In this document: in pieces, positions 2,661-15,524 of the stretch | How the letters are laid out: every line of letters starts with the position of its first letter | Position numbering within the stretch: the stretch's first letter is position 1 | Assembly: GCA_014799385.1 (NCBI GenBank) | Contig: JAAVIC010000003.1 | Span: 33,701 to 97,700 of the forward strand | DNA: 64,000 nucleotides | Direction: 5' to 3' | Source of the DNA: Oscillospiraceae bacterium | GTDB lineage: Bacteria; Bacillota; Clostridia; Oscillospirales; Ruminococcaceae | Program-made: the position numbers and the translations under genes | The notes under the pieces: generated by a model | Database searches by the model: none | The model's input: only the letters and a program-made list of their open reading frames with translations | What the model was told of the DNA's origin: nothing

Positions 2661-3566
2661 TTAAATTATTATTTTATTTCTAGGGTGCTTGACTGAAAGA
2701 ATCTGTTTCTGTTTAGCCATTGAAACGTGCGTATAAATTTGCGTTGTAGCAATTGAGCTGTGACCGAGAATTTTTTGTATGTAACGAATATCTACGTCTT
2801 CCTCAAGCAAGAGTGTTGCAAACGAGTGGCGGAACATATGTGGAGTAATATGCTTTTCATATCCAATCGCTGTTGCTTGCTTGTTGATCATTACTCGAAC
2901 AGACTGCTCTGTAAGTCGTTGGTGAAGCTTATTTACGAAGAAAAATCCCGATTCGGAAATGTCATCGTAAAATGCGTCATAATAACGGTTCAGTGCTTTT
3001 AAAACGTCGGAATTTTCAATCTGAATAATGCGTTCTCTTGACCCTTTTCCAAAAATCTTTACTGTGTGGTTTGTCAAGTCAACAGATTCCGGGGTAAGAG
3101 TACAAATCTCGGAGACTCTCGCTCCGGTAGCAAACAACAACTCTAATACGGCTATATTCCTAATCGCATTTTTACGGGAAAAGTCTGTTTTGCACTGCCG
3201 GTAATCTTCATAGGCGTTAGCAAGAATCTTACCAATAATGTTCATCGGGATAACCTTTGGCAGTACCATTGGTTCACGAAACGAGGAATCAATTTTATCG
3301 AACGGGTTTGCATCAATTATTTCTTGGGTCATCAGATAGTGTGTAAACGCCTTAAGTGCTGCGATTTTACGCTTTGCAGTCTTGGGTTTAAACTGTTTAT
3401 GTAAGTAAGCTATGTAGTTGATTATAATATTCTTGCCAAATGTATTTTCTGAAAACTCTGCGAATTGCAGCAAGTCGGTTTGGTACGCCTTGGTTGTTTT
3501 TGAACTGAGAGTTCTCTGCTCCGAACAATAGCGGAGGTATGTCGATATATTATTTCTTAAGTCCAT
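2661..3566 (-). CDS. Tyrosine recombinase (XerC/D-like integrase or invertase)
   Basis: A 301-aa site-specific recombinase with an N-terminal SAM-like core-binding domain (residues 1-90) and a C-terminal catalytic domain. All catalytic residues are visible: Arg150 (ATGARVSE), Lys174 (GKGSRER), His243 and Arg246 (TPHMFRHSF), His269 (LGHSS) and the nucleophile Tyr278 (TQIYTHV). The start is set by AAAGGAG 8 bases upstream. Full length suggests an active enzyme. It sits between a conjugative-element gene and a cassette flanked by a perfect 41-bp inverted repeat, so it is either the integrase of the element or the invertase of that cassette. Proximity to the repeat, as in the Bacteroides Mpi/Tsr and Clostridioides RecV systems, makes the second role attractive, but this is inference. 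Confidence 0.93.
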   Translation of the reverse strand: MDLRNNISTYLRYCSEQRTLSSKTTKAYQTDLLQFAEFSENTFGKNIIINYIAYLHKQFKPKTAKRKIAALKAFTHYLMTQEIIDANPFDKIDSSFREPMVLPKVIPMNIIGKILANAYEDYRQCKTDFSRKNAIRNIAVLELLFATGARVSEICTLTPESVDLTNHTVKIFGKGSRERIIQIENSDVLKALNRYYDAFYDDISESGFFFVNKLHQRLTEQSVRVMINKQATAIGYEKHITPHMFRHSFATLLLEEDVDIRYIQKILGHSSIATTQIYTHVSMAKQKQILSVKHPRNKIII

Positions 3567-3645
3567 TGTGATTTCTCCTTTGATTTTGATATATTTTTAT
3601 TATAAATCCAAATGAGAATTATGTCAAATTATACAATTAGATTAG

Positions 3646-3830
3646 ATGAAATTTGTAGAAAATGCTGATTTTGATGGTGAGTGCGATCTGACGCAGAGGG
3701 CGGCGAATATGGAACAGAACGAAACAGCCACTATGAGCGTGATCTTGAGAACGATTGTGATGTAGCGGGCAATGAATCTGAAGATGAGGAACTTGACAAT
3801 GACAAAGCTGAGGATATCGGTGAAGATTAG
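3646..3830 (+). pseudogene. Degraded coding remnant, acidic
   Basis: A 39-codon frame starts at 3646 (MKFVENADFDGECD) and stops at 3763. The adjacent frame from about 3717 then continues with a strongly acidic sequence (ESEDEELDNDKAEDIGED) to a stop at 3828. The composition and frame switch suggest a decayed gene. No family is recognised. The rest of 3567-4073 shows no other gene. Confidence 0.3.
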
Positions 3831-4073
3831 GATGAGCCCGAAGATCAAGTAATGTCGGTGGGAATGTAAAAGCGAATCACCATGTCGCAATTCTAACAAT
3901 TTAATTTGGATTGCGACAAAATTGGTAATTTCCGGCGACTTTGTTTATGGTTAAAATTAACAAAGTTTTGATTGAGAATTTGACAAAAAATACAAAAATC
4001 GTGCATTTCACGCAAAATATCGACATCTTGCGCAAGGGCGTGGGTGACTGACAATTTCCAGTTGGAAAATTGG

Positions 4074-4102
4074 TTGATTTATTTGTTTAGGAATGGTATA
4101 AT
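4074..4102 (+). promoter_or_regulatory. Sigma-A promoter reading into the invertible cassette
   Basis: TTGATT (4074-4079), a 17-base spacer and TATAAT (4097-4102). Transcription would start near 4109, just upstream of the left 41-bp inverted repeat, and read into the membrane-protein/ATPase operon. The promoter is outside the repeat, so it would stay in place if the cassette inverted. Confidence 0.8.
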
Positions 4103-4128
4103 TATAAATGAATAAGTATCCAACGATG

Positions 4129-4169
4129 GATAACTGTAAATTATCATTTGTTAGAGAGGGAATTATGAA
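4129..4169 (+). repeat. Inverted repeat, left copy (41 bp)
   Basis: Identical over 41 bases to the reverse complement of 9338-9378; identity ends on both sides. It begins GATAACTGTAAATTATC, which is itself two 5-bp inverted arms (GATAA/TTATC) around a 7-bp spacer, as expected of a tyrosine recombinase core site. It ends with GAGAGGG, the ATG at 4165 and two further bases. Confidence 0.95.
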
Positions 4170-4551
4170 TTACATAGAAATTGTAGAGTTTTTTTGTCCG
4201 ATTATTTCGACATTAAGTATTGTAATTTCTTCAGTTGTTTTATGTCATCGATCTCTTTCAAAAATATCAATTTATGTATTAAATGAGAATGGCTATTTGA
4301 AATTGTATGCAGTAGCACTACACCGGAAAATGGTTCTTCGTAACTTGCAAATTAAAGTAAAACGAAAAATAGTCAATGTGGATGATATTTTTTTTAATGG
4401 TGGAGAAGAAAAGATTGACTTAGATACAGACGGTTTTAAATTAATAAAAATTATTCCATCGTCCGAAAAACTGAAAGGATATGCTTTTATAACAATTGAC
4501 ACCGAATGGGATAACAAAATCTGGAAACTTGTTAAAATAAGGAGAAGATAA
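4165..4551 (+). CDS. Small membrane-anchored protein of unknown function
   Basis: A 128-aa protein in which a hydrophobic helix (about residues 8-28) is followed by a soluble basic/beta-rich region of about 95 residues. I chose the ATG at 4165 because it has GAGAGGG 5 bases upstream, both inside the inverted repeat. The upstream in-frame ATG at 4108 lies at the predicted transcription start and has no RBS. The gene is AT-rich like the rest of the cassette. Its stop is 2 bases before the next gene, so it is co-transcribed with the STAND-like ATPase and may tether or sense for it at the membrane. No family is recognised. Confidence 0.75.
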   Translation: MNYIEIVEFFCPIISTLSIVISSVVLCHRSLSKISIYVLNENGYLKLYAVALHRKMVLRNLQIKVKRKIVNVDDIFFNGGEEKIDLDTDGFKLIKIIPSSEKLKGYAFITIDTEWDNKIWKLVKIRRR

Positions 4552-4553
4552 AT

Positions 4554-6896
4554 ATGGATTCTTTTTACAATAGGTTTGAAGAACGAAAAGTACTATGCCA
4601 AAATGATAACAATACTTTCATAAAAAAAATGTTGATATTTGGAGAAAAGGGCATGGGTAAAAGCACTCTTGTCAAAGAAATATATAACGATAAATACTGC
4701 TTTTGGTGCGATGGACTATCTAACAATTATTTCCGTTCTTTCGTACTTAACATTGTCCAAAATGGTTTTCACAATTACCTTATGGGTCAAAATAAATTTA
4801 ACTATAAAGATTTATATTTGGTAGAATTTCAAGACCGTTTGCTACAAAATAATAGTTTAGTAGACTTTTTGTTTTCAAAAAAGTTTTTCTGTGCAAAAAA
4901 TGAGGTAAGCATAGAAATGCTTGCAGTAAAATTTTTGTTGGAGCACTGTAAATGCAAGACAATTATTTTTGATAATTTTCAGAATTGTGATAATGATGAT
5001 TACGGCAGAATAATGAACATAATACAGACAATTTCCCATGATTGGGTAAATGAAACTTTTAAAATAATTTTCATCCTTTCTGAAACATCTGGTAAAATGT
5101 TTGATTTGCTGAATGCATTATGTGATAATATTCTCATGCTTTCTGGTTTGGAAAATAGATATATCAAAGCTTTGGTTACAGACTTTTTTGGGAATCCACC
5201 ATTTAATTGTGATGAAATTTCCGAGTATCTTTTTGAGAAATACAATGGAAATCCAGGATCAATTTTAAATCTATTAAAATTTAAATTTAACCAAAATAGC
5301 AGTAATTGCCTATCCAAAAACGAAATCCTTTCTAAGCTAACATCAACACAGTATACTAATCTTGACCCCACCGAAAAAAGGATAGTACTTTTTTTATCTG
5401 TTTTACCTTATCCGATAAGCACAAAAAAAATGATTCGCTTTATTAGCCAAGATAAGGATTACCCAAATCTCGATAGTCTTGAAACAATAATTGATAAAAT
5501 ACAAAATTTAAAGATTAGAGGTATTTTACAGGTAAAAGATGATATTCTTAGAATAGATAGTGCGGCAAAAGTACAATATAGCAGTATATTTAGTTCTGAT
5601 ATTATTGCTGTTTATATGATACATACACTTCTTAAAAATTTTGATAAAATATTAAGTTCGCATGAAAAATCAGATTGTCTTTATTTCATAATGTGTAGCA
5701 AAAAGATTGATTTTACGAGCAGCTTGATTAAAAAAATCTTTAGTTCTACTACAGAGACAGCTGTTACTATGGCAAATAATAGAATGTGGAATGAAAGTGT
5801 TTGCTATTTTAAGAGAATCGTTTGCTTTACAGATCTTCTAACAGAAAAAATACTTACAAGATTTTATGAATGTATCTACTATTCTGCCCAATTTGATAAC
5901 TTTAAAGATTTCATTGAAAATATTAATGATAATAATTTCTCATCTTTTGCATATTGGTATTGGAAAGGAAATATATTATATATGTTAAATTCCGAAAGTT
6001 CTATTAAGGCTTTGGACAATGCAATTTTATTTGCTACCAACAAAGGCGAAAAAATAAAAGCTCAGATTATTCGAGAAGAAGCGATGTCGGAATTACCGGC
6101 GTTATGTCACGCTACATTTTCCTATTACAACTTTCTACTTAATGAATATGAAAATGATGATTTTCCAGAGTTGGCATTATTATATAGAAATTCTTTGGTT
6201 ATTGGCGGAGATCAGACTGTAGCATTATGTAACAAAGGCATTGAAATCGCTGAAAAATACAATTTAAGGGAGGAGGCAGTTAAATTAAAACATAATCAAA
6301 ATTTTGAACTTTTTAGGATGGGAAAATATGACAATTGTCTTGAGGCTTTTGAGGAGTCTGCACAGTTTTTTCAAGGATATAGTGGTAGAAAATATGAGTC
6401 TGCGTATGGATACAATAATTTATCCCTTGTTTGTCTTTTGAGACAACAATATTCTGATGCGAAGCTATATGCGTATAGTGCTGTAATCTATGCTGACACG
6501 CCTTATTCTCAAATAGCTACACGAGTTAACTATAATTTAATCCTGAGTTTTTGTGAAAAAAACAGTTCAGAATTAGAAAAGCGTGTTAGTAAAATAGAGG
6601 AACTCTTTAATTATTATAGGATAACTGACTGTAGAATGTATAGAAAAGCCTATATGTCCATAGCAATATCCTATATAAATATAGAAAAACATGATATTGC
6701 CAAAGAATACTTAATGAAAGCAGAAAAATACCTTCAAACAGGAAGACATATTAATAGATATAGTAATCTTTGTAATAAGCTTAATATTCCCTGCAATGAA
6801 ACTGTATCAGAAGTAATTGATGAAGATAATTGTTATTATAATTTCTATTCCAATCCTAATTTTGAATTATGGCTTTTAGCTTTTGGGCACCTGTAA
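4554..6896 (+). CDS. STAND-like P-loop ATPase with C-terminal helical/TPR region
   Basis: A 780-aa protein. The N-terminal NTPase domain has a Walker A GEKGMGKST (residues 30-38), a Walker B TIIFD (136-140) and a sensor-like strand IIFILSETS (171-179). A winged-helix-like segment follows (about 280-360), then a long helical region (about 400-770) with TPR-like repeats. This is the layout of STAND NTPases, which act as regulators or as defence and cell-fate switches when a ligand binds the repeat sensor. No effector domain is obvious, so the small membrane protein encoded 2 bases upstream could be the effector or anchor. RBS AAGGAGA. Strongly AT-rich relative to the chromosome. It is on in the present orientation if the left promoter is real. 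Its biological role is not known. Confidence 0.75.
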   Translation: MDSFYNRFEERKVLCQNDNNTFIKKMLIFGEKGMGKSTLVKEIYNDKYCFWCDGLSNNYFRSFVLNIVQNGFHNYLMGQNKFNYKDLYLVEFQDRLLQNNSLVDFLFSKKFFCAKNEVSIEMLAVKFLLEHCKCKTIIFDNFQNCDNDDYGRIMNIIQTISHDWVNETFKIIFILSETSGKMFDLLNALCDNILMLSGLENRYIKALVTDFFGNPPFNCDEISEYLFEKYNGNPGSILNLLKFKFNQNSSNCLSKNEILSKLTSTQYTNLDPTEKRIVLFLSVLPYPISTKKMIRFISQDKDYPNLDSLETIIDKIQNLKIRGILQVKDDILRIDSAAKVQYSSIFSSDIIAVYMIHTLLKNFDKILSSHEKSDCLYFIMCSKKIDFTSSLIKKIFSSTTETAVTMANNRMWNESVCYFKRIVCFTDLLTEKILTRFYECIYYSAQFDNFKDFIENINDNNFSSFAYWYWKGNILYMLNSESSIKALDNAILFATNKGEKIKAQIIREEAMSELPALCHATFSYYNFLLNEYENDDFPELALLYRNSLVIGGDQTVALCNKGIEIAEKYNLREEAVKLKHNQNFELFRMGKYDNCLEAFEESAQFFQGYSGRKYESAYGYNNLSLVCLLRQQYSDAKLYAYSAVIYADTPYSQIATRVNYNLILSFCEKNSSELEKRVSKIEELFNYYRITDCRMYRKAYMSIAISYINIEKHDIAKEYLMKAEKYLQTGRHINRYSNLCNKLNIPCNETVSEVIDEDNCYYNFYSNPNFELWLLAFGHL

Positions 6897-6945
6897 TTAA
6901 TTATTCTTGCTTATTTTTATAAAAGTGATTTTCATATAAAGCTTT

Positions 6946-7935
6946 TTATAATAAATTTAGCGATTCAATATAAAGTTTTACGAAAGATTCAAAAGTAACA
7001 TTTAGAAGTTCACAGCATTTTCCAACATCTGAGGTTGTTCCAAATGCTGGATTGGTGTTTGCTTCAATGAAGAATATCCCATTATCATTTATTCTGTAAT
7101 CTACTCTTATAAAATTATTAAGGTTTAATGCCAACGCGATTTGTTCAGTAATTATCTTAACATTGTCTGTAACGGTATTGCTAAAATTCTGCTCTGCCAA
7201 ATAATATTTTCTAATATTTGAACTTTTTTCAAAAATTCCAAAAATCTCGTTGGAAAGGAATAATTGATTTTGGTAAGCTATTGATAAAGGTTGATTAAAT
7301 AATATGTTATTTGTTCCTTTTTGTCTGATTATCAAATCAGTTATCTCGTATCCTGCAATATATTCTTGAACTAAAACTTCATCAAAATCTTTTAACAAAT
7401 CTTGTGTTTTTATTTTTGCGGTTTTAAAATCTGGACAAAAACAAGAGGACGTTATCCCAATTGACGAACCTTCACAATTCGGCTTGGCAATTACAGGAAA
7501 ACGCAAATTATGTATTTGTGAAAAATCTTCTTGGGATGAAATCATAACGGAATCTGGGCATTGTATATTTTTTTGGCGCAAACACAGATTTGTAAAATAC
7601 TTGTCGCTTACAAGCAATGTGTGAAATGGATCGGAGCCTGAATATGGGACATTTAGCATTTCCAGTAGCATGGGTGTTTGTCCTCTTTTATGTTTTTCAG
7701 ATAATCCATCATTAAGGTTAATATAAACTCCTTCTGGCATTATTCTTTTTTGACTATATGATTTAATTAAATCTTCTACACCACCGAAATACTCTGCCTC
7801 ATATCCAATACTGTTAATTGTATTTATTAAATTAATCATTGACTGTTTGCTGATATGATCATTATAGGTCTTATTCCCAACAGTTAAAGAGGGAAACTTT
7901 TCTCTATAATCGCAAATAATATACAATTTCTTCAT
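6946..7935 (-). CDS. D-alanine-D-alanine-ligase-like ATP-grasp enzyme
   Basis: A 329-aa ATP-grasp protein with the Ddl fold order: an N-terminal Rossmann-like part with NLNDGL and PYSGSD (about 75-105), an ATP-binding middle domain with PVIAKPNCEGSSIGI (about 150-165) and VQEYIAGYE, and the C-terminal metal site RVDYR...FFIEANTNP. True Ddl enzymes usually end this motif with NTLPG; here it is NTNPAFG, so the acceptor may not be D-Ala. It is second in a minus-strand operon, starting 3 bases after the malQ-like stop with GGGAGA as RBS. AT-rich. It would form an amide or depsipeptide bond between an activated carboxylate and an unknown acceptor. Confidence 0.75.
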   Translation of the reverse strand: MKKLYIICDYREKFPSLTVGNKTYNDHISKQSMINLINTINSIGYEAEYFGGVEDLIKSYSQKRIMPEGVYINLNDGLSEKHKRGQTPMLLEMLNVPYSGSDPFHTLLVSDKYFTNLCLRQKNIQCPDSVMISSQEDFSQIHNLRFPVIAKPNCEGSSIGITSSCFCPDFKTAKIKTQDLLKDFDEVLVQEYIAGYEITDLIIRQKGTNNILFNQPLSIAYQNQLFLSNEIFGIFEKSSNIRKYYLAEQNFSNTVTDNVKIITEQIALALNLNNFIRVDYRINDNGIFFIEANTNPAFGTTSDVGKCCELLNVTFESFVKLYIESLNLL

Positions 7936-7938
7936 AAT

Positions 7939-9342
7939 TCACTCTCCCTGAATTAGAAAATCTATCATAGAATTTTCTAGTTGATTTATGTCTTTTAGTC
8001 TGAAGCTCCAGTTCGTATCACTTGGAGCATGTGTGTTTATAACAAAGTTATCATCTAGTTTTAAGATGTCTTGTATAGTGAAAAAAACGATTTTAGCCTT
8101 ACTTTTTAACAAGCTATTAATAATGCTTTTATATATATTACTGGACTTTTTTATATTTAAATTATGATATAGCTTTGAAATCTCACTTTGACTTAAAGAA
8201 TTTAAAAAACCAATTAAAGTATGTGTATCATGTGTTCCAGTATATGCAACGCATTTTTCTGTAAAATTCTTCGGTAAATCAAGTGCTGGATTCTTAAGGC
8301 AATATTGAAATACTCTCATATTGTAAAATCCTGTTTCATTGATAAGACATTGCACCTCTGGAGTAATGATTCCTAAATCCTCTCCGACAACAATCTTATT
8401 GGTAGTATATTCTTTCACGGCATTAAATAAAGAAGCTCCTGGACCTTTCTCATAATGACCAATTAATCCATCTCTTGTTTTGGGAACAACCCAATAACTT
8501 TCATATCCTCTAAAATGATCCAATCTAATTCCATCAAACAACATGGAATAAAAAGAAAATTTAGTTTTAAAAAAATTAAAATCATCATTTTCAATATTTT
8601 CCCAATTATATACAGGATGCCCCCAACACTGCCCAATTGATGAAAATTCATCAGGTTTTGCGCCAGATAAATATATTGGATTACCTTGTAAATCAAGTTG
8701 ATAGTATGATTGATTAAAATATACCTCGCTACTACAAAGTGAAGAATAAAATGGTAAATCTCCCATGATCATTATATTCTTTTTATTTGCGTATTTTTTA
8801 AGTGAGATCCATTGAGAATAGGCTTCATATTGAAGGAACTCCCAGAATTTTTCAAGTATATCACTAGATTTGAAATTTACCCATTTTATCCAGGAATTGG
8901 TTTTATTTACATGACATAAAGATTGGTATTTACAAAAATCCTTAACACCAGAATTTTGAGATATAAAAAAATCTAATTTATTAAAATCTTTAAATCGAAG
9001 AAATGCCGAATATAATAATTGAATTCTAGAGGAATATAACTTCTTGTAATTACATCTGCCATTGTTCAATGTAATTTGCTCTTGTAACTCCTTGTGTGAA
9101 ATAAGATTTTTGAAATATAATTCTTCTAAATCAATATAAAAAGGATTAATGGAAAAAAGGGATGAGGAATTATATGGGGAATTGAACTCATCAGAAATAC
9201 ATAAGGGAAGAATTTGCCACCACGAAAAGCCAGCTTCTGATAAAATGTCAACAAATTTTCTTGCTTCCAGTCCAAATGAACCTATTGAGTATTTGTTATC
9301 TAATGAAAAAATAGGCATTAAAATTCCATAATCTGGTTTCAT
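7939..9342 (-). CDS. malQ: 4-alpha-glucanotransferase-like protein (GH77)
   Basis: A 467-aa GH77 amylomaltase. Recognisable blocks are SPYNSSSLFSINPFYID (substrate/glucan loop), GDLPFY, GAKPDEFSSIGQCWGHPVYNW, the nucleophile Asp in RLDHFRG, the acid/base Glu in GEDLG and the third acidic motif GTHDTHT. The usual C-terminal RMNTPG block is replaced by VINTHAPSDTNW, so this is a divergent member. The enzyme family transfers alpha-1,4-glucan segments between acceptors. The RBS and start codon lie inside the right inverted repeat and are identical to those of the small membrane protein at 4165. Upstream, reading toward the gene, I see no good promoter, so it may be silent in this orientation. Confidence 0.85.
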   Translation of the reverse strand: MKPDYGILMPIFSLDNKYSIGSFGLEARKFVDILSEAGFSWWQILPLCISDEFNSPYNSSSLFSINPFYIDLEELYFKNLISHKELQEQITLNNGRCNYKKLYSSRIQLLYSAFLRFKDFNKLDFFISQNSGVKDFCKYQSLCHVNKTNSWIKWVNFKSSDILEKFWEFLQYEAYSQWISLKKYANKKNIMIMGDLPFYSSLCSSEVYFNQSYYQLDLQGNPIYLSGAKPDEFSSIGQCWGHPVYNWENIENDDFNFFKTKFSFYSMLFDGIRLDHFRGYESYWVVPKTRDGLIGHYEKGPGASLFNAVKEYTTNKIVVGEDLGIITPEVQCLINETGFYNMRVFQYCLKNPALDLPKNFTEKCVAYTGTHDTHTLIGFLNSLSQSEISKLYHNLNIKKSSNIYKSIINSLLKSKAKIVFFTIQDILKLDDNFVINTHAPSDTNWSFRLKDINQLENSMIDFLIQGE

Positions 9343-9378
9343 AATTCCCTCTCTAACAAATGATAATTTACAGTTATC
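9338..9378 (-). repeat. Inverted repeat, right copy (41 bp)
   Basis: Perfect reverse complement of 4129-4169. It carries the RBS (GAGAGGG) and start codon of the malQ-like gene. The sequence between it and the next promoter (9379-9481) has no convincing leftward -35/-10 pair. Confidence 0.95.
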
Positions 9379-9481
9379 TTATGTTGAGCGTATGGATTAT
9401 TCCATCCGAGAGAAGATAAGTTCACATATGCACATGCTAATGTTCTTTTGCGACGGCAACTATATTTTTACAAAGTAAATG

Positions 9482-14156: not shown

Positions 14157-15524
14157 TTAAATACCTATGGGAATGGTATTGACGTTTTGAATCGCCATCT
14201 TTTCGCGTGTGGTGTACAGCCTTACGATTTCGATAAACTCCTCCTCGGTAACGTTTCTCGCGGTGATTTTGAATCCGCACTGTTGTCCGCTGTCCCCCAG
14301 CGTAAACGCGGCGGAATATTGTTTTCCGTTGTAGTAGAGATATACATACAGATTGTTGATAACGGACATTTCATCACCGTCACGCGGACAGCCCCCAAAG
14401 TCCGGAATTTCATCGCCCCTATCCACCGCGATGTTTACGCTTTTTTCTCCCAGCGTCCATGCAAAATCGTTCTGAGTCCAATATGGTCTGTACCACGCGG
14501 CAAAGCCATCGTTACCCTCATCAATGTACGTTCCGTACTTGTTCTGCTTCATAGTCCATTCGGGATATTCAGCCGAAAATGCGTCGACCTTATAGCCGTA
14601 GTAGCGGCATATTCCCTCAAGCGTGTACTCGTCAAAATCATCGGGATTCATCTCTTGCTCAAAGGTTTTTGCATATCCGCCGTCACCGTTATTGAACACG
14701 ATATTTTCGGGCTTGGATGTTATTTTTTCATTGCCGCCAACTCCCGTGTAGTCGGTATACAGCTCCACGATTTTAATAAATTCGTCCTCGGTAACTCCGC
14801 CCTTTGCGGTTATCTCAAATCCGCACCTGCCGTACATAAATCTCGCGTAGTACGAATCAATAGGTTCGCTATTGGGATACTTCCCTGCGAAGTGATAAAG
14901 CGTTACATCGACATTGTTGATTACCGAAACCGCGTCATCGCCAAATTCCCAAATCACGCAGTGTATCGGAAGTCCGCCCATATTCACCTCAACGCTTATT
15001 TCTTTTTCGTCGAGCTTCCACCAGAGGGTGTTTTGCCGGTAATACGGGTTATATGCCCCGGACGAACTTTCCGTGGATTCGCCCCTTTCCGCGTAGATTC
15101 CCAGCTTATTGTAATTCATAGTCCATTCGGGATATTTCTCCGAAAACGCGTCAATTTTCAAGCCGTAGTAGTTGTTCATTTCTTCAAGCGTGAACTCCTC
15201 GAAATCATTCGGATTTATATAGATATCCGCCTGAGCCGTTGCGGGAGAGCCGTCATTGAACACTATATTATCGGGTCTCGGGTTCGGAGATTGGTTCGCG
15301 CCCAACTCGGCTCCCGATGCGATCTCATCCACTTCACCTATTAATGGATGTACATACTTCCCTTTGGTTGGTGTGTTTGCTAACACAGCGATTCCGACAA
15401 TCCCCGCGGCAGCCACACTCGGAATACCGATTCTCATCGTGTTCCTCCGCAGTCTTTTGCGGTTTATAAGCTCCTTATCGCGGCGGGCAATAACGTCCCG
15501 CGTCATTTCTTCATAAGTTTTCAT
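14157..15524 (-). CDS. Membrane anti-sigma-like protein with duplicated extracellular domain
   Basis: 455 aa. A short basic cytoplasmic N-terminus (residues 1-32), one transmembrane helix (about 33-52, IGIPSVAAAGIVGIAVLA) and then two homologous extracellular domains. Each opens with PDNIVFNDG or PENIVFNNG, then ...NPDDFDEYTLE, YYG.KIDAFSEKYPEWTM and ...FIKIVELYT. The ATG at 15524 is preferred (AGGGG 7 bases upstream) over the in-frame TTG. It overlaps the 3' end of the ECF sigma gene by 14 bases, so it probably acts as its membrane-bound partner, although no classical zinc-binding ZAS motif is visible. No specific family is recognised for the repeated domain. Confidence 0.75.
   Translation of the reverse strand: MKTYEEMTRDVIARRDKELINRKRLRRNTMRIGIPSVAAAGIVGIAVLANTPTKGKYVHPLIGEVDEIASGAELGANQSPNPRPDNIVFNDGSPATAQADIYINPNDFEEFTLEEMNNYYGLKIDAFSEKYPEWTMNYNKLGIYAERGESTESSSGAYNPYYRQNTLWWKLDEKEISVEVNMGGLPIHCVIWEFGDDAVSVINNVDVTLYHFAGKYPNSEPIDSYYARFMYGRCGFEITAKGGVTEDEFIKIVELYTDYTGVGGNEKITSKPENIVFNNGDGGYAKTFEQEMNPDDFDEYTLEGICRYYGYKVDAFSAEYPEWTMKQNKYGTYIDEGNDGFAAWYRPYWTQNDFAWTLGEKSVNIAVDRGDEIPDFGGCPRDGDEMSVINNLYVYLYYNGKQYSAAFTLGDSGQQCGFKITARNVTEEEFIEIVRLYTTREKMAIQNVNTIPIGI

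Follow-up and report, generated by a model that had tools for sequence, protein, structure and literature searches.

A 5.2-kb segment of the 64-kb window, by which we mean the whole stretch of DNA analysed, very probably forms a two-state switch, in which the adjoining XerC/D-like tyrosine recombinase flips the segment and one promoter outside it reads either of two whole operons. The recombinase would recombine two inverted sites with a 17-bp core (GATAACTGTAAATTATC) and turn the segment, and the single promoter outside the left site would read whichever operon adjoins it. Because the 5′ leader contains the site and the RBS and start codon are within the repeat, translation would be kept in both orientations. 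In the sequenced copy, the STAND operon would be read and the MalQ/ATP-grasp operon would be silent, and inversion would swap them. We infer that this recombinase is the agent, that the window copy flips and that the operons take these expression states. The same platform appears to be carried by plasmids and apparent conjugative elements of several bacterial groups, with exchangeable payloads.

The first-pass annotation had described a perfect 41-bp inverted repeat around two convergent operons, with an RBS and ATG in each arm, and all of this was borne out, the arms holding the first codons as well (Table 1). This is the longest exact inverted repeat of the window, the next being 22 bp. Searched with up to 3 mismatches, its first 31 bases match the 2.69-Mb genome at the two arms and nowhere else. 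No stretch with the exact 31-base sequence was found in a scan of the genome contig collection. The assembly of the window genome has a single orientation, with the contig continuous through both sites, and the reading frames of all four cassette genes are open. The proposed MalQ and ATP-grasp content of the far operon agreed with Pfam (GH77, E = 9e-114; D-Ala-D-Ala-ligase-like). In the near operon, the 128-aa protein has, in our own reading, a hydrophobic N-terminal stretch, and the label “STAND” for the second gene is an interpretation only, because every Pfam hit is below the cut-off. A STAND-like protein was found in one of 100 relatives, namely the window's own genome. Among known STAND defence systems (PADLOC, 2023), no model matched window 4554-6893, and for Thoeris PADLOC gave no hit at E ≤ 0.001 with the four cassette proteins of the window.

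Table 1. Coordinates of the proposed switch in the window, and Thoeris-like cassettes among its relatives.
Feature	Position	Strand	Basis
XerC/D-like tyrosine recombinase, proposed invertase	2661..3566	-	Pfam, alignment
Proposed recombinase promoter, TTGACA-17-TATAAT, 12/12 consensus match	3599..3627	-	
Proposed outside promoter, TTGATT-17-(TGG)TATAAT (TTGATT-17-TGGTATAAT), reading into the near repeat	4074..4102	+	
Near recombination site, CAAC-N4-GATAACTGTAAATTATC, core 4129-4145	4121..4145	+	Sequence, family motif
Left repeat arm, with RBS and ATG of the near operon	4129..4169	+	Repeat search
Near operon gene 1, 128 aa, without family match	4165..4551	+	
Near operon gene 2, STAND-like P-loop ATPase with TPR region, 780 aa	4554..6896	+	Weak Pfam hits, L061 homologue
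Far operon gene 2, D-Ala-D-Ala-ligase-like ATP-grasp enzyme, 329 aa	6946..7935	-	
Far operon gene 1, GH77 4-alpha-glucanotransferase (MalQ), 467 aa	7939..9342	-	
Right repeat arm, with RBS and ATG of the far operon	9338..9378	-	Repeat search
Far recombination site, CAAC-N4-GATAACTGTAAATTATC	9362..9386	-	Sequence, motif
Thoeris-like cassettes in relatives	L077, L084, L102, L110, L119, L139, L202		

The protein encoded beside the segment is indeed a tyrosine recombinase (PF00589, 5e-42), in which R150, K174, H243, R246, H269 and Y278, which we take to be the catalytic set, are invariant across 12 aligned sequences. No serine-recombinase family was among its six Pfam hits, and its score against the integron integrase model TIGR02249 (94.8 bits, cut-off 265) indicates that it is not one. 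The gene is divergent from the outside promoter and lies 562 bp from the site; among the 21 relatives whose pair is upstream, this distance is 102-242 bp in 20 and 685 bp in L080. The stretch between recombinase and promoter (3642-4073) is longer than in most relatives and seems to contain a degraded insert.

At the outside promoter, TTGATT (4074-4079), a 17-bp spacer and TATAAT (4097-4102) were all found as described, with a TG preceding the -10, and the expectation that the right side has nothing comparable also held, as a scan yielded just a 9/12 match overlapping the site (9387-9360, minus strand). Promoter-like strings are frequent in this AT-rich stretch (51, against a mean of 36.1 in shuffles), which makes the window by itself weak evidence for a promoter. 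Across relatives, a simple sigma-70 score, applied to the 90 bp outside each site, was higher on the recombinase flank than on the far flank in 20 of 22 cassettes, the exceptions being L138 and L021. The means were 9.7 and 5.6 (Wilcoxon p = 1.2e-5), with the related flanks not being independent; L110 and the downstream-site and plasmid cassettes were left out. In L110, the arms share 99 bp, promoter included, and the far arm is the contig end; we read this as a possible captured inverted junction, a true longer repeat being the alternative.

Recombinase matches at E ≤ 1e-40 were present in 11 of 43 genomes of the genus, counting the window's own, and 12 of the 13 matches were aligned into a search profile, with the partial match in G019 omitted. 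Scanning the genome contig collection with this profile gave at least 553 confirmed loci, and the best 80 of these are titled mostly as MAGs of Oscillospiraceae, Ruminococcus, Lachnospiraceae and unplaced Clostridia, with Ruminococcus callidus ATCC 27760, Hungatella hathewayi WAL-18680 and Desulfosporosinus hippei DSM 8344 as isolates. In 21 of these best 80 of at least 553, an inverted repeat with the site motif or a close variant lies upstream of the recombinase, and in 11 more a motif-bearing repeat lies downstream, at most 204 bp past the gene end, an architecture that would place the near operon behind the recombinase and on its strand. Inverted repeats lacking the site motif were excluded by visual inspection (e.g., L108, L111, L120, L132 and L134 upstream and L089 downstream). 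With tblastn at E ≤ 1e-60, we recovered eight plasmid records, five from Streptococcus and three from Aliarcobacter, each of which has the repeat pair. The same search gave three contigs that had been deposited as faecal phage, two of which were fetched, L202 with the pair and L203 without it. At E ≤ 1e-95, 8 of 394 genomes of the order matched, again counting the window's own, and among the order-wide regions L206-L211 a motif-bearing inverted repeat was present in L209 only, which was used. In a viral contig collection, the recombinase search gave one distant locus, 36% alike over half of the length, which was screened with an inverted-repeat script only.

Across 32 near sites, the motif is AAC-N4-GATAACTnnnAATTATC, where A, A and C at -7 to -5 hold 1.7, 2.0 and 1.1 bits and AAC was outside the search pattern. 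Both window sites fit it (CAAC-GATG-GATAACTGTAAATTATC and CAAC-ATAA-GATAACTGTAAATTATC). Pattern hits with the centre CCGAG (e.g., G000:C1:129151) were rejected as sites, and four loci were translated: the hits in L033, L044 and L050 fall in one conserved coding stretch, which we read as flavodoxin-like, and that in L054 (centre CGT) in another gene. A further site is present in the window's own genome at G000:C12:109460-109476 (L186), where GATAACTATAAATTATC is the exact contig end; the adjoining 5.5 kb that we read holds no recombinase, and this could be a second switch, perhaps served in trans.

Inversion driven by the recombinase, as the first-pass annotation had proposed, is supported by both orientations being present in one record and in all nine recurring pairs of the relatives. 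For this comparison, cassette proteins were clustered at E < 1e-10, giving nine cluster pairs found in at least two cassettes (eight gene-pair types, 27 of 42 cassettes), and each of the nine occurs in both orientations relative to the recombinase; near and far were assigned by gene strand, and 3 of the 27 have non-simple layouts. Comparing orientation among relatives had been suggested as a check, and it does differ for the pair of the window, which is one of the nine: in L061, from the same genus, it is the ATP-grasp gene that adjoins the promoter, and the STAND-like gene, on the other strand, is separated from the far site by a HAD gene. We attributed a 17-bp inverted match within L061 to chance.

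The single record is that of an S. equinus plasmid (CP020439.2; L218 and L219), whose two ends repeat each other over at least ~33 kb at an offset of ~185.4 kb, so that both cassette orientations are visible in it. From position 15001, where the comparison began (the first 15 kb being left out), the left flank 15001-27830 matches 200451-213278 on the plus strand (99.95%) and the right flank 29818-48000 matches 215267-233324, also plus (99.3%), while the cassette 27792-29859 matches 215305-213237 on the minus strand (99.9%). The orientation breakpoints are a 39-bp repeat. One copy is of poor quality, as the alignment of the right flank contains 123 gap openings over 18 kb, and the first copy has an annotation for just one of its two cassette genes. 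The recombinase of this plasmid is 43% identical to that of the window, and the record suggests flipping inside one S. equinus isolate.

Contigs end 0-54 bp past the near site in 13 of the best 80 of at least 553 loci, from 10 genomes, that is, in 13 of the 37 among those 80 for which an upstream site was recognised. Partner contigs were sought in all 10 genomes. In G107, one 26-bp sequence closes the recombinase contig and is also present at the start and at the end of a 3778-bp cassette contig, the pattern that we would expect from two coexisting orientations in a de Bruijn assembly. The two flank contigs terminate at an identical base in G100 (two cassettes), G103, G104 (one pair) and G109; in G101 the far contig continues into the cassette, the second pair of G104 and G105 have uneven ends, and G106 shows a linking contig besides two contigs with the recombinase. 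No partner was identified in G102 and G108. The far flank of G015 (in G101) is 92.6% alike to that of G012 up to the site and continues into what is the near gene end in G012, with 53 bp (site included) matching it on the minus strand at 98%; this comparison rests on those 53 bp at a contig end, because a search of G015 for the 415-aa cassette protein of G012 found none. Downstream contig ends were considered as a control for these stops (19 of 80 within 400 bp upstream and 11 of 80 within 400 bp downstream, in the best 80 of at least 553) and rejected, as the second architecture places a site just downstream. Stops at the site could also stem from strains with different payloads.

We mapped 42 cassettes with a crude ORF caller, with Pfam run on part of their proteins. 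Two convergent blocks, each starting ~0.2 kb or less from a site, are present in 35, and the layout is less simple in the other seven (L061, L068, L079, L083, L121, L122 and L138). Payloads set a STAND-like protein against an ATP-grasp enzyme or SHMT, SIR2-STALD against TIR, a protein with a sub-threshold CAP12-TIR match against a glycosyltransferase, ATP-grasp/radical SAM against a pentapeptide protein, a methyltransferase against a protein whose L217 relative carries a GNAT annotation, and a polyprenyl synthase against an unknown protein. By our own uncounted reading, many cassettes appear to set enzyme genes against a sensor/effector-like protein. In L088 and L130, the opposed operons bear relatives of one gene (38% and 53% identity), which is closer to classical antigenic alternation. 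A far-side gene is split into two frames in L102 (2067-3410) and L216 (1937-4407), as if the off state had relaxed selection, and this could also be sequencing error. Small frames at 3665-4253 of L095 read as integrase-like, suggesting an insertion sequence inside the cassette.

Cassettes are also exchanged, since similar plasmid flanks carry unrelated cassettes and the similarity breaks at the site. In the five S. salivarius/equinus plasmid records, recombinases are 95-100% alike and flanks 91-99.6% alike, and the match ends at the site, with three unrelated cassettes in between; two of the three Aliarcobacter plasmids behave likewise, with two cassettes. Such exchange is what would be expected if, in an integron-like manner, the repeats were the ends of an exchangeable cassette that the recombinase mainly swaps or inserts, with its orientation set at entry and rarely changed, a reading that we consider somewhat unlikely. 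Insertion either way or mixed strains could also account for both orientations across genomes, the contig stops and the G015/G012 comparison, but the S. equinus record with both orientations of one cassette, and the G107 cassette contig, which has the repeat at its start and its end, are harder to explain in this manner. Inversion and cassette exchange can coexist.

Flipping could also belong to the past in the window genome, the segment having been inverted or inserted once and now being fixed. The single orientation of the assembled contig and the long recombinase-to-site distance would fit such a fossil, but the repeat is still perfect across 41 bp, all four cassette genes are open, and the recombinase is intact, with its conserved residues and a 12/12 promoter match, and we judge this very unlikely. 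Expression of both operons in either orientation, from a second promoter past the far site or by read-through, would mean that inversion alters dose and not identity. The far flanks of the streptococcal plasmids, which are outside the 22 scored cassettes, do contain a -10-like TGGTATACT by our own reading, and Thoeris is understood to require its two proteins together, which is hard to square with exclusive expression; against this, the far flank scores lower in 20 of the 22 cassettes, and a hairpin and T-run follow the far site in L018 and L019, as we read them. No terminator-like site was found beyond the far repeat of the window. On balance, we regard expression of both operons as unlikely, and a switch between two operons remains our preferred reading.

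The Bacteroides Mpi/Tsr invertons, Clostridioides RecV and FimB/E switches mostly flip a promoter. The segment described here shares with them a tyrosine recombinase, short inverted repeats and, as proposed, ON/OFF phase variation, whereas in this case the promoter would stay in place and two operons would change places. Integrons likewise combine a tyrosine recombinase, exchangeable cassettes and one promoter, but here two inverted sites enclose one double cassette. In the G segment of phage Mu, the C segment of P1 (Gin, Cin) and the P segment of e14, which are invertible and bear ORFs, an outside promoter reads alternative gene sets, so turning such sets past a promoter is already known from Mu G and P1 C. 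As in those, a segment between inverted repeats would be turned past one outside promoter; however, theirs are serine invertases that swap tail-fibre gene variants, whereas here a XerC/D-like tyrosine recombinase would swap whole and mostly unrelated operons, the RBS is in or beside the repeat, and payloads are exchangeable. For the e14 P segment, we also refer to the PinQ paper (PMC12529663). Among the open-licence PubMed Central entries returned by our searches, none described this recombinase/operon-exchange family. Within that scope, what appears to be new is a family of tyrosine recombinases that would exchange entire, unrelated operons between sites bearing an RBS, with payloads that can be replaced and in some cases resemble the halves of one immune system.

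In seven cassettes of relatives (Table 1), ThsA-like SIR2-STALD and TIR proteins are encoded on opposite operons. The two SIR2 proteins submitted to PADLOC matched ThsA (7e-168 in L084, 8e-91 in L077), with SIR2_2 and STALD in Pfam, and the remaining five were assigned by homology only. Pfam TIR_2 was found in all four TIR proteins submitted (L077, L084, L110 and L139), and in PADLOC the two submitted gave a partial ThsB match (5e-9 in L077, 4.5e-11 in L139), which the candidate model PDC-S66 outscores (4e-15 and 1e-18, respectively). Thoeris is understood to need both proteins, and its genes are usually in one operon. The relatives, and not the window, resemble Thoeris in their SIR2-STALD and TIR proteins, but their two genes are convergent in an invertible segment and the TIR match to ThsB is partial. 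If expression is exclusive, a cell would have one Thoeris-like half at a time; a division into senders and responders, arming by flipping and leaky expression are all possible for these cassettes. In the literature found on Thoeris together with DNA inversion and phase variation, Thoeris is named solely in the title of a reference.

More tentatively, the family may form a mobile either-or platform that spans phyla and carries the two halves of a single conflict system, each cell expressing only one half at a time, which we see as possible though doubtful. If so, the halves would be a signal-making enzyme and a sensor/effector, as in Thoeris, and cells would be senders or responders; alternatively, a flip under attack would arm the system, the second half joining what remains of the first. 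The ATP-grasp/MalQ and STAND operons of the window would then be an undescribed two-part system. If the switch reading is right, a Thoeris-like system and several undescribed pairs would be phase-variable in a way invisible from gene content, and finding the two genes in a genome would not imply expression of both. As each cassette pairs operons, the signature of recombinase, AAC-N4-GATAACTnnnAATTATC and convergent operons could serve to find two-part conflict systems, and it raises the question of what favours separating the halves of an immune system.

A relaxase-like gene, by our own reading, lies just beyond the far site in L018 (4445-5713), L019 (12592-13149) and L020 (3486-4664), and in L018 and L019 the hairpin and T-run are located between the site and this gene. 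In these three loci, the cassette seems to occupy a fixed place in conjugative elements.
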